From Chthonomonadia bacterium (GTDB taxonomy: Bacteria > Armatimonadota > HRBIN16): DNA of 64,000 bases. Location of the stretch: NCBI GenBank assembly GCA_013314755.1, contig JABUFA010000009.1:1-64000 (forward strand), in the 5' to 3' direction. Below, piece by piece: positions 17,657 through 47,102 of the stretch (position 1 is its first letter; each line of letters opens with the position of its first letter). The notes below the pieces were generated by a model. That model ran no database searches, was not told the DNA's origin, and worked only from the letters and a program-made list of their open reading frames with translations. A program made the translations under genes and the position numbers.

Positions 17657-17847
17657 CCTTGCGACTGGAAGTCACAGGTTAGCCTCTGCCCAATATGGAG
17701 TGCTGAAGCCATGCTTCAGCATTGCCAAATAGCCCGCAACTTCTAGTTGCAGGGATGTTTTTTTACGACAACCTTGCGATTGGAAATCGCAGGCAACACA
17801 AAACGAAACCTGCTGGCGCAGGTTGCTGAAGCAAGCTTCAGCACTCC
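17657..17847 (+). repeat. composite palindromic repeat cluster A
   Basis: The 371-base gap before the serine hydrolase holds no gene. It is built of short palindromes in series: a (TTGCGACTGGAAGTCACAGG, 17659-17678), b (GCTGAAGCCATGCTTCAGC, 17702-17720), c (CCGCAACTTCTAGTTGCAGG, near 17734-17753), a again (17774-17793), d (AACCTGCTGGCGCAGGTT, near 17807-17824), then b (17825-17842). The same units in the same order occur in clusters at 31.3 and 46 kb. Confidence 0.8.
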
Positions 17848-31242: not shown

Positions 31243-31517
31243 GTTGCGGGCTACTTTGGAATGCTGAAGCATGGCTTCAGCAGATTTCGCCAAGTGTTAC
31301 CTGCGATTTTCTGTCGCAAGGTTGTCGTAAAAAAACACCCCTGCAACTGGAAGTTGCGGGCTACCCAAAACGAAGCCTCCTGCGGAGGCTGAGCTTGAAC
31401 TGCTGAAGCATGGCTTCAGCAATCCATACCTGCTTCAGCAGGTTTCGTCTTGTGTTGCCTGCGACTTCCAGTCGCAAGGTTGCAATTCTTGTACCGCTGA
31501 AGCATGGCTTTAGCAAT
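31243..31517 (-). repeat. composite palindromic repeat cluster B
   Basis: The 433-base gap between lemA and citrate synthase carries the same palindromes as cluster A in the opposite orientation: b (GCTGAAGCATGGCTTCAGC) near 31264-31282, 31402-31420 and 31496-31514; a reverse near 31301-31322 and 31459-31482; c reverse near 31339-31362; d near 31428-31445. No gene is seen except the start region of the citrate synthase leader. Confidence 0.8.
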
Positions 31518-33768: not shown

Positions 33769-33803
33769 CTAGCAAGGCAAACAAAACGGAGAGGAGCTTC
33801 GTG

Positions 33804-34370
33804 ATGGCAAAGCGCATCGTGGAAATATCCGCGCACGATACGACCACGCCCCAGATACCCGGCGTGCAACAGCAGGGCAACATCCTGCTGGCGAAGCTGG
33901 AGGACCTGGTGCGCTGGGGACGGGTCAACAGCCTGTGGCCGCTCACCTTTGGGCTGGCGTGTTGCGCTATTGAGATGATGTCCACCGTGTCGGCACGGTT
34001 TGATATTTCACGCTTTGGCTCGGAGGTGTTCCGCCCCAGCCCGCGGCAGGCGGACGTGATGATTGTGGCGGGGCGAGTCTCCAAGAAGATGGGACCTGTC
34101 CTGCGCCAGCTGTACGACCAGATGCCCAACCCCAAATGGGTCATTTCAATGGGCGCGTGTGCCTCGTGCGGAGGCGTATTCAACAACTATGCCATCCTGC
34201 AGGGGGTTGACCAGATTGTGCCGGTAGATGTGTATGTGCCCGGCTGCCCGCCCTCGCCGGATGCCCTGCTGTACGGTCTTCTGCAGTTACAGCGCAAGAT
34301 ACGTCAGCAGCACCGGGGGATGCTGATAGAGCTGCCCATGCTGAAGCGCGAGGAGGTCGCCAGCCGATGA
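33804..34370 (+). CDS. nuoB: NADH-quinone oxidoreductase subunit B
   Basis: A 188-residue peripheral-arm subunit of Complex I that holds the N2 [4Fe-4S] cluster. The four ligands are visible: adjacent cysteines in LACCAIEMM, one in [10 protein letters not shown] and one in [11 protein letters not shown] 33804 is preferred over GTG 33801 because GAGGAG is then seven bases away. It overlaps nuoI by four bases. No other nuo gene is within the window, so the remaining subunits must be elsewhere. Confidence 0.94.
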
Positions 34371-34843
34371 TTACTCAGGTTGCCAAACGCTTTGTGAAAA
34401 CGGTTCTGCCTCTGGCGCAGGGGCTGAGCATTACTTTCCGCCACCAGCCGCCGTTCCATGAGCCAATCACGGTGGAATATCCCGAACAGAAGCGCCCGAT
34501 GTATCCTCGTACACGCTGGCGGCATGTGCTGCGTCGCTACGACAACGGGCTGGAGCGATGCATCGGCTGTTCGCTGTGTGCGGGGGCGTGCCCGGCACGC
34601 TGTATCTACGTGGAAGCCGCGGAAAACACCGATGAGCATCGTTTTTCGCCGGGCGAGCGCTACGCACGACGCTACGAAATCAATATGCTCCGCTGTATCT
34701 TCTGCGGCTACTGCCAGGAAGCCTGCCCGACAGGCGCCATCGTCCTGCGCGACGATTACGAGCTTGCAGATTATCACCGCAGCGACTTCATCTATACCAA
34801 AGAGATGCTCCTTGAACCGATACCAGAACCACAGGAGGAGTAG
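34367..34843 (+). CDS. nuoI: NADH-quinone oxidoreductase subunit I (8Fe ferredoxin)
   Basis: A 158-residue ferredoxin-like subunit with two [4Fe-4S] motifs: [15 protein letters not shown] (about 65-79) and [15 protein letters not shown] (about 111-125). They relay electrons to N2. The N-terminal segment [21 protein letters not shown] is typical of NuoI. It overlaps nuoB as ATGA. A strong hairpin lies eight bases after the stop, so the transcript ends here and this is a two-gene Complex I unit. Confidence 0.94.
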
Positions 34844-44182: not shown

Positions 44183-45685
44183 CTATCGCACTGCCTGCGT
44201 TGCCAGCATCTGCGCCTGGCGGGCGTAATCCAGCGCCTCGTTCAGCTCCTTCATCACCTCTTCGGGGTTGTGGAAGCCCATGCTGTTCTCCGAGACCACC
44301 AGATTCTCCCAGCGCACGTGCGCCTGCTGGTGCAGACGAACCGCTTTCTGCAGGTTCTCTTCATTGACCGTTTTGCCTTCCGCTTTCGCCTGCTTGGCGG
44401 CGGCGATGGCATCAATGCTGTCGCTCAGTGCCTGCTGGACGCGCTTTTGCGCCTCGTTGACGTGACGCTGTACCCTCAGCACCTGCTCGCGCAGAGTTTC
44501 AGGGGCAACGTTATGGCACTGCGCACAGGGATAAGCCCCTAATTTCTCCCCTTTGATGTATTTGTCCATGTAGCGCAGGGGAGAGACCAGCCAGTGCGAG
44601 GTAAGCCAGCGCCCACCGACCGCTACCTTCGGCATGTGACAGGTCACGCACGACGCCCCGGCGCGTTCGTACTTGCTCTCCCAGAAGGTTTCCACCTCGG
44701 GATGCTGGCTTTTAACCAGCGGCTCCTTGATGATGTCGTGTATCCAGTCCTGCTGGTAGGCGTGTCGCTGTTTGTAGTACTCCTCCAGGTCGCGCACCTT
44801 GCGCCAGCTGAACTCGAAGCGCGCTTTCTTATCGGCGCCCGGTCCGCACACGTATTCCACGTGGCACTGCGCGCAGACCAGAATCTCCTTCTGCTGTTTA
44901 TCCGCTCTGGCGAAGCTCTTCACGTTGCGCTCTTTCCAGTAGGGGTTGACGCCGTAGCGCTCGATAGCGTTCTGCAAGCCTTTGTTGATAATCTGCAGTT
45001 GCGCGGTATGCGGGTTATGGCAGTGCGCACAGGACGCGCCGTAGTCCTGCATCTCTTTGGGAATGCGGTTGATTGCCTCCTGCCACTTCGCCACCACGTC
45101 GCCGTCGTTGGTCAGCTCCAGCCCCTTCCACTCTTTGCCCCAGTAGTAGGCAACCTGAGTGGACTTGCAGTTCAGACAGGCAAGGTTCTTCCCGCGCTTG
45201 ATGTCAATGTGGTCGCGCAGGATGTAGCGGTGCGACCGCTCTTCGTTATACTCTCTGGTGAAGCCGTGCCCTGCGACGATTTTGTTATACAGGGGGAAGT
45301 CTTTGGTCTTGGGGTGCTCTTTGGGGTCTGCGGGTGTGCCCCCGAACTCTCCCGCTGTGCCCGGCTCGCTGGTCATGTAGGTCTCATACTGGAACTTGTG
45401 ACAGGAACCGCAGGTCTCCGAGCGGAAGTCCACCACAGGCAGTACCTGCGTGGGGTCTTCGGCGTTCTGGTGCGCCAGCGCGTTGGGGTGGCATTGCGAG
45501 CAGTTCAGTCCCGCGTGCGCGTTCTGCTTGAACGGCTCTGCCACCTCGGAGTGGCAATCGGCGCACTGTTCCTGCGCCTGTGTGGATGCGGGTTGAGCCG
45601 GTTCGGGCTGGACGTTCGCCGTCACCGCCCATGCTATCGCCATCAGCATCAATGAGGAAAGCAACATCCATCTCCTGCTGCGCAT
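44183..45685 (-). CDS. octaheme nitrite reductase (ONR-type multiheme cytochrome c)
   Basis: A 500-residue exported cytochrome with signal peptide (1-24). It has eight heme motifs, starting at C41, C62, C92, C170, C219, C271, C346 and C387. The fourth is CLNCK; its lysine (K174) replaces the distal-side-free His motif and marks the catalytic heme, as in NrfA and octaheme reductases. Three hemes precede it and four follow, matching the Thioalkalivibrio octaheme enzyme rather than five-heme NrfA. Y278-V-C280 in CHVEYVCGP fits the Tyr-Cys cross-link of that group. It reduces nitrite, and possibly sulfite, to ammonia in the periplasm. No NrfH-like quinol partner is adjacent. ATG 45685 has AGGAGG eight bases upstream. 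Confidence 0.9.
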   Translation of the reverse strand: MRSRRWMLLSSLMLMAIAWAVTANVQPEPAQPASTQAQEQCADCHSEVAEPFKQNAHAGLNCSQCHPNALAHQNAEDPTQVLPVVDFRSETCGSCHKFQYETYMTSEPGTAGEFGGTPADPKEHPKTKDFPLYNKIVAGHGFTREYNEERSHRYILRDHIDIKRGKNLACLNCKSTQVAYYWGKEWKGLELTNDGDVVAKWQEAINRIPKEMQDYGASCAHCHNPHTAQLQIINKGLQNAIERYGVNPYWKERNVKSFARADKQQKEILVCAQCHVEYVCGPGADKKARFEFSWRKVRDLEEYYKQRHAYQQDWIHDIIKEPLVKSQHPEVETFWESKYERAGASCVTCHMPKVAVGGRWLTSHWLVSPLRYMDKYIKGEKLGAYPCAQCHNVAPETLREQVLRVQRHVNEAQKRVQQALSDSIDAIAAAKQAKAEGKTVNEENLQKAVRLHQQAHVRWENLVVSENSMGFHNPEEVMKELNEALDYARQAQMLATQAVR

Positions 45686-45819
45686 CACCACAGCCTCCTT
45701 ATGTGTTCGGATTTCACGCTTTGTTCCACGGTAATATTTGGCAAATTGACCTGTAACTCCTCTTTTGGAGCATGAACACAGGTCAGAGCACATCACACAT
45801 GCCTCCTCCTCTTACTCCG

Positions 45820-46255
45820 ACCTTGCGACTGAAGCAGGTTATGGACTGCTGAAGCCATGCTCCAGCACAGTTGCTGGAATGCCTCCTTTCTCTTATCCCA
45901 ACCTTGCGACCGGAAGTCGCAGGCTACACAAGACGAAACCTGCCCAGGCAGGTTAATATGGAGTGCTGAAGCCATGCTTCAGCACTCCAAAATAGCCCGC
46001 AACTTTCAGCTGCAGGGTTGCCTTTCTCCCCTTCTATTGTGTCCTTGCGATTGGAAATCGCAGGCTACGCTTGGCAAAACCCGCTCAAGCAGGTTATAGG
46101 TTGCTGAAGCAAGCTTCAGCACTCCAAAGCCCGCAACTTCCAGTTGCAGGGATGATTTTTTCAGGCAACCTTGCGATTGGAAGTCGCAGGCAACGCATGG
46201 ACAAAACCAGCTGACGCTGGTTATGGATTGCTAAAGCCATGCTTCAGCAATTCAA
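45820..46255 (+). repeat. composite palindromic repeat cluster C
   Basis: The 637-base divergent gap before lgt holds no gene. It contains about three tandem copies of an a-d-b-c palindrome unit. Units a (TTGCGACCGGAAGTCGCAGG) lie near 45903-45922, 46044-46063 and 46170-46190. Units d lie near 45938-45954, 46078-46095 and 46205-46222. Units b lie near 45964-45982, 46103-46121 and 46230-46248. Units c lie near 45997-46018 and 46129-46151. Confidence 0.82.
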
Positions 46256-46322: not shown

Positions 46323-47102
46323 ATGTATCCCATTCTTTTTCATTTGGGCACGCTGGAAGTGCGCTCGTATGGCGTGATGATTGTGCTGGGCTTCGTGCTG
46401 GCAGTATGGTGGGCGATGCGCGTGGCTCCACGCTATGGAATAGATGCCGAGCAGATTCTGGACTTTGTGCTGTTGACCGCGCTGGGCGGGATAGTGGGCG
46501 CACGATTAGTATATGTTGCGCTGGACTGGCGAGATTTCCTCAGCCAGCCGGTGCATATTCTGTACTTCTGGGAAGGGGGATTGTCCTTTCACGGGGCGGT
46601 AATCGGCGGCGGGCTGGCGGTGGCGTTTCTCGCGCGACGCAAGGGCATCCCGTTCCTCCGTCTGGCAGACGTTCTGGCACCATCTGTAGCGCTGGCTTAT
46701 GCGGTGGGGCGTATCGGCTGTTTTCTGGGCGGATGCTGTTACGGCGTGCCGACCGACCTGCCCTGGGCGTGTTCGTTTCATGACCCGTTCAATCCACACA
46801 TCCACACTCCGCCAAGTCATCCAACGCAAATCTACGCTTCGCTGTCCAATCTGCTGATATTTGCCCTGCTAACGCGGATGCAGAGACCCCCGCATCCCAC
46901 CGGCAAAGTGTTCTGGGCATACCTGGTGCTCTATGGCGTCTATCGCTTCGTAGTGGAGTTCTGGCGTATTGGTGCGACTTCCACCGTGCTGGCGCTGGGG
47001 TTGTCGGATGCGCAGTGGGTGAGCATCGGCATGGTACTGGTGGGAGCGGTACAGTGGCACAGAGCGGTACGGCTCTGGCGCGAGAGGACACCGGTCACCT
47101 GA
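46323..47102 (+). CDS. lgt: prolipoprotein diacylglyceryl transferase
   Basis: A 259-residue polytopic inner-membrane enzyme that attaches diacylglycerol to the lipobox cysteine of lipoproteins. Seven or so spans are visible. The WEGGLSFHGAVIGGGLA motif carries the conserved His. The signature region is GRIGCFLGGCCYG, the cysteine-rich variant instead of the classical GRxGNFxNxE. The C-terminal segment GVYRFVVEFWRIG holds the conserved Arg. Its stop overlaps the -35 of the following gene. Confidence 0.93.
   Translation: MYPILFHLGTLEVRSYGVMIVLGFVLAVWWAMRVAPRYGIDAEQILDFVLLTALGGIVGARLVYVALDWRDFLSQPVHILYFWEGGLSFHGAVIGGGLAVAFLARRKGIPFLRLADVLAPSVALAYAVGRIGCFLGGCCYGVPTDLPWACSFHDPFNPHIHTPPSHPTQIYASLSNLLIFALLTRMQRPPHPTGKVFWAYLVLYGVYRFVVEFWRIGATSTVLALGLSDAQWVSIGMVLVGAVQWHRAVRLWRERTPVT

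Follow-up and report, generated by a model that had tools for sequence, protein, structure and literature searches.

The octaheme cytochrome gene and its surroundings

Positions 44183..45685 of the window (the whole 64,000-nucleotide stretch analysed here) hold, on the minus strand, a gene for a putative octaheme cytochrome c nitrite reductase (ONR) of 500 aa plus stop. Translation of this strand gives an uninterrupted open reading frame, and the plus-strand frame is broken. The ATG lies at 45683-45685 and the stop codon at 44183-44185; as the ATG is preceded by a good ribosome-binding site (AAGGAGG), an alternative, longer start at a GTG at 45796 is less likely. The protein begins with a hydrophobic segment (45614..45685; about residues 1-24, with a helix at residues 2-23 in the structural model) that could serve as an export signal or anchor. 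This and all other features of the protein given below lie on the minus strand.

The translation bears out the original prediction of eight heme motifs in the order CH,CH,CH,CK,CH,CH,CH,CH. Hemes 1-3, with the motifs CADCH (residues 41-45), CSQCH (62-66) and CGSCH (92-96), make up an N-terminal triheme part that runs from C41 to H96 (45398..45565) and is without counterpart in pentaheme NrfA. The fourth motif, CLNCK (170-174; 45164..45178), would bind the active-site heme, with Lys174 as the proximal ligand by homology. Hemes 5 to 8 are represented by CAHCH (219-223; 45017..45031), followed by H226, then CAQCH (271-275; 44861..44875), CVTCH (346-350; 44636..44650) and CAQCH (387-391; 44513..44527). 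The expected Y278-V-C280 is indeed found directly after the sixth motif, where the translation reads CAQCH-VE-YVC. Seven CXXCH motifs and one CXXCK in fourth place is the arrangement of ONRs; pentaheme NrfA is defined by five hemes with the lysine motif first.

This motif pattern is not a product of chance, since the protein matches Pfam Cytochrom_C552 with E=6e-75 (residues 91-498, with triheme-type matches N-terminal to it), its best sequence match among solved structures, the ONR 8rv0, has E=4e-48, and its orthologs in eight more genomes from the genus are 83-90% identical. The next solved structures are TvNiR, the ONR of Thioalkalivibrio nitratireducens (1e-45), and then pentaheme NrfAs. 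Among NCBIfam models NrfA alone was matched, in every case sub-threshold.

Within the genus, 9 of 10 genomes carry the gene, the exception being 80% complete; across the phylum only 12 of 291 do. Elsewhere in the phylum, genomes have pentaheme NrfA instead, mostly adjoining a tetraheme NrfH-like gene. Throughout the genus the ONR gene is a solitary gene next to lgt, and ilvD often flanks it on the opposite side (both named by eye). The divergent lgt (46323..47102, plus strand) has no functional link to it as far as can be seen, and the adjacency is kept in five relatives. Aligned upstream regions of the genus contain no shared motif that might mark a regulator site. REP-like tandem copies some 120-140 nt in length occupy intergenic DNA at 45809-46254 and also at 17702-17720 and 31263-31514; they carry palindromes of the form GCTGAAGC-NNN-GCTTCAGC, with 7 matches in the window vs 0.09 expected. 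Elsewhere in the window (33801-34843) is a pair of NuoB- and NuoI-like ORFs, named by eye, apart from the nuo cluster on contig C40.

Active site and comparison with known enzymes

R164 (45194..45196) aligns with the catalytic Arg131 of TvNiR, and Y278-V279-C280 (44846..44854) with Tyr303/Cys305, a pair that is covalently linked in that enzyme. K325 and Q327, which are NrfA/ONR calcium-site residues by homology, lie with the catalytic H328 at 44702..44713. In the alignment R164, K174, Y278, C280, K325, Q327 and H328 are all matched by TvNiR counterparts, respectively Arg131, the CXXCK lysine, Tyr303, Cys305, the calcium-site Lys/Gln and His361. All the catalytic residues also align with TaNiR, and CAQCHVEYVCGPG of the window protein aligns to CAQCHVEYNCNPG of TvNiR. 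R164, Y278, K325 and H328 are invariant across 66 relatives. The H226 column contains His in all ONRs and Lys in most NrfAs. Tyr, Arg and Cys have been described as the ONR active-site residues (PMC5433712); these three and the His are all aligned in the window protein. The predicted position of Y278 and C280 toward heme 4 is taken from alignment with TvNiR Y303/C305.

Tyr-x-Cys also occurs outside the ONRs. NrfA had earlier been described as being without it, which does not apply universally: the corresponding column reads VEY-Y-C in 4 of 51 pentaheme NrfAs. These four (L079, L094, L097 and L099), all of the CXXCH type and with Tyr-x-Cys at the TvNiR crosslink position, form one supported clade, and their hosts belong to the Planctomycetota, Desulfobacteraceae, Verrucomicrobiota and Acidobacteriota.

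How similar is the protein to characterized enzymes? It shares with TvNiR (PDB 2OT4, 3F29) the heme order, the CXXCK at heme 4, the triheme N-terminus, the Arg/Tyr/His catalytic residues, Tyr-x-Cys, the Ca-site Lys/Gln and the fold (TM 0.70-0.75). However, identity is only ~32%, the host lineage is another, the loops around heme 6 are shorter and the ~47-residue insert of TvNiR is missing. The Trichlorobacter ammonificans ONR (PDB 8RV0) is the top PDB match by both sequence and fold and has all the catalytic residues, but is 33% identical and contains a crown-ONR insert of ~40 aa absent from the window protein. Its partner in T. ammonificans is Nap (PMC11972089), whereas none lies near the window gene. 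Pentaheme NrfA (e.g., Geobacter 6V0A, 8BCX) has the same five-heme core at ~34% identity, with the CXXCK, Arg/Tyr/His and Ca-site residues. It differs in being without the triheme N-terminus, in usually lacking the Cys after VEY-x, in having Lys for His226 and in being usually accompanied by NrfH or NrfBCD.

Predicted fold and oligomeric state

An AlphaFold2 model built from 66 aligned sequences (pLDDT 87.1, pTM 0.85) has the ONR fold over its full length. In a fold search against the PDB, the top eight matches were ONRs, aligned along the whole length (526-561 columns) at TM 0.73-0.75, followed by pentaheme NrfAs at TM 0.61-0.68. Eight hemes are the sole point in favor of placing the protein in the group of hydroxylamine oxidoreductase (HAO), octaheme tetrathionate reductase (OTR) and the sulfite reductase MccA. 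The CXXCK active-site motif speaks against such a placement, no HAO or OTR was found by sequence or among the fold matches listed (for HAO, the 50 best), and MccA is a weak fold match (E=0.02, TM 0.2). The sequence and fold searches thus rule out this identity, to which we attach a vanishingly small probability.

The triheme part aligns with those of TvNiR and TaNiR, and the spacing between hemes 1 and 2 is 21 in all three. The spacing between hemes 3 and 4 is 78 in the window protein vs ~117 in crown ONRs; the insert of ~40-47 residues absent here is equivalent to TvNiR 133-179, before the CXXCK. TvNiR F140, W143, T147, S175 and Q176 are among the trimer contacts of that enzyme (PMC5433712). 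Because the insert that holds these contacts is missing, the window protein may not form a TvNiR-type hexamer (dimer of trimers).

A deep lineage beside the crown ONRs

A tree of 96 sequences separates octahemes from pentahemes with support of 100; one of the 45 sequences on the octaheme side shows seven canonical motifs. Separately, an Actinomycetes ONR-like protein (L051:7962-9803) has CDGADCH (CX4CH) as its first heme site, with two more multiheme cytochrome genes nearby. When every sequence was cut to the five-heme core, excluding the shared triheme part as the driver of the split, the eight-heme set and 45 pentaheme NrfAs still separated with support of 100/100, in a tree that is unrooted, without a usable outgroup, and in which two long branches meet. 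The window protein forms a clade of its own with its genus (9 of 10 genomes), members of two further families in the phylum (G032, G045, G059) and a Verrucomicrobiia MAG (L034). This clade branches outside the crown ONRs, which include those of Thioalkalivibrio, Geobacterales, Nitrospirota and others. Its stem is short (~0.3-0.55 changes per site) relative to those of crown ONRs (1.33) and NrfA (~1.1).

Could the protein instead be a pentaheme NrfA that has independently gained a triheme extension and Tyr-x-Cys, its likeness to ONRs being convergent? Mean core identity of the clade is as high to NrfA (34%) as to crown ONRs (33%), that between crown ONRs and NrfA being 29%. Some motif spacings are nearer NrfA, seven core positions are common to the clade and NrfA against crown ONRs, and four NrfAs have Tyr-x-Cys. 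However, twelve core positions, including C280 and H226, are common to the clade and crown ONRs against NrfA, the triheme part aligns with those of TvNiR and TaNiR with the identical heme 1-2 spacing, and the core-only tree places the protein with the ONRs (100/100). Nesting within NrfA with a convergent triheme part is disfavored by this tree, and we consider convergence very improbable.

The protein is best described, with good confidence, as a periplasmic ONR from a deep-branching, insert-free lineage of that family. Membership in the octaheme group, as originally proposed, is upheld by family, fold and tree, but the protein is not a crown ONR: it belongs to a deep sister lineage, about as distant from TvNiR as from NrfA. 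A practical cut for ONRs is >40% identity to TvNiR (PMC5433712). At 32-33% the window protein lies below this value, which is a search cut-off and not a mechanistic criterion, and it is filed for this reason as an ONR-family variant and not an ordinary member. With ~32% identity to characterized ONRs, its substrate preference could differ. One survey reports onr in 14 bacterial phyla (PMC10716430). Our literature search found no paper tying an octaheme nitrite reductase to this lineage, which is not proof of novelty.

Candidate electron donors

As first noted, no NrfH, NrfBCD or nitrate reductase gene lies near the ONR gene in the window. At the genome level, NrfH-type PF03264 has no match, no other PF02335 protein scores above the cut-off, and the single NrfD is inside an alternative complex III locus; searches for PF03264 and NrfD thus returned neither of the partners, NrfH or NrfBCD, that go with NrfA. 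The donor had been left open, and this holds for the neighborhood of the gene, but candidate nitrate-reductase and quinol-oxidising partners exist elsewhere in the genome, which contains two cytochrome b loci, C53 and C50. The genome also encodes a second octaheme cytochrome (L121:5519-6994) with eight CXXCH motifs, which matches Pfam PF13447 Multi-haem_cyto.

A NarK-like transporter is encoded at the C53 locus, which lies on another contig than the ONR gene, together with a type II DMSO-reductase-family subunit of 814 aa, a Rieske protein, cytochrome b and an FeS/cytochrome protein. The closest solved structure to the 814-aa subunit is a perchlorate-reductase-type enzyme, followed by ethylbenzene dehydrogenase and NarG. 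Since this nitrate-reductase-like gene was found in only 3 of the 14 genomes checked, C53 is not a constant partner and a role in nitrate respiration is not general. The cluster at L129:247-7519 has, in a row, genes for a NarK-like transporter, a type II DMSO-reductase-family subunit, an FeS/cytochrome c/b fusion, a Rieske protein and cytochrome b; it may encode a nitrate (or chlorine oxyanion) reductase that works with a Rieske/cytochrome b module.

At the C50 locus a Rieske gene is accompanied by one for a cytochrome b to which ~15 heme motifs are fused and one for an 11-heme protein containing a b561-type domain. The ortholog of this locus in G032 directly adjoins the ONR gene, divergently, with oxidase genes in the same cluster; in G059 an NrfD-family gene lies upstream of the ONR gene on the same strand. 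The full-length C50 form occurs in 11 of the 12 ONR genomes of the phylum vs 12 of 279 others, a comparison in which, the genomes being related, the raw p-value overstates the association; at the family level it is 3 of 3 (p~0.008), with few independent events. Quinol oxidation by this Rieske/cytochrome b-multiheme complex is, tentatively, our leading candidate for the donor, a link that draws on one syntenic relative and co-occurrence in related genomes. With oxidase genes beside it, the same complex may mainly serve oxygen respiration. Unusual complex-III-like clusters are found at L136:5100-9935 and L118:1-8069, with a Rieske protein, a cytochrome b fused to 15-17 c-type heme motifs and an 11-heme protein that has a b561-type domain.

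Proposed mechanism and physiological role

The gene very probably encodes an octaheme enzyme for the reduction of nitrite to ammonium. The protein would be exported, and a Ccm system would attach its eight c-type hemes; one CcmF/NrfE-family and one CcmC-like maturation gene are present in the genome. Nitrite is expected to bind on the distal side of the lysine-ligated heme 4, where R164, Y278 and H328 would support its six-electron reduction to ammonium, and Y278 and C280 are probably linked as in TvNiR. Side activity toward hydroxylamine and sulfite is likely. Electrons may enter via the other hemes, with a periplasmic pool, not NrfH, as their probable source; the pool itself would be reduced by the quinol-oxidising Rieske/cytochrome b-multiheme complex or alternative complex III. 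We infer both the calcium and the physiological role.

An ONR-fold enzyme need not conserve energy by nitrite respiration, and its main task might be detoxification (of nitrite, hydroxylamine, NO or peroxide) or sulfite reduction. A locus that in the genus consists of this gene alone, with no dedicated partners, would suit such a task, as would the presence of the gene in 9 of 10 genus members though the nitrate-reductase-like gene was found in only 3 of 14 genomes. Beyond nitrite, the substrates of TvNiR include hydroxylamine, sulfite and peroxide (PMC5433712). However, the active site has the makeup seen in nitrite reductases, and the sulfite reductase MccA is a weak fold match. These roles are not separable by sequence alone, and we regard detoxification or sulfite reduction as a credible reading, though not the one we would expect. 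A siroheme nitrite/sulfite reductase family protein is also encoded in the genome, and assimilation may therefore be a separate capability.

Implications for the NrfA/ONR family

The enzyme is of a known kind, and its lineage is deep and insert-free. More speculatively, and on balance doubtfully, the clade would be a third octaheme lineage that evolves slowly and sits at the point where NrfA and crown ONRs diverge, one that has kept the triheme domain without the trimer insert, is non-hexameric and is fed by the Rieske/cytochrome b-multiheme complex. If this were true, its rooted position would decide between loss of the triheme domain in NrfA and gain in ONRs. With eight hemes, no crown-ONR insert and short branches at this fork, the clade is useful for testing fusion vs loss. 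An insert-free ONR also provides a means to test whether the hexamer is required for activity, and the Rieske/cytochrome b-multiheme complex offers a concrete donor candidate for a nitrite reductase without NrfH.
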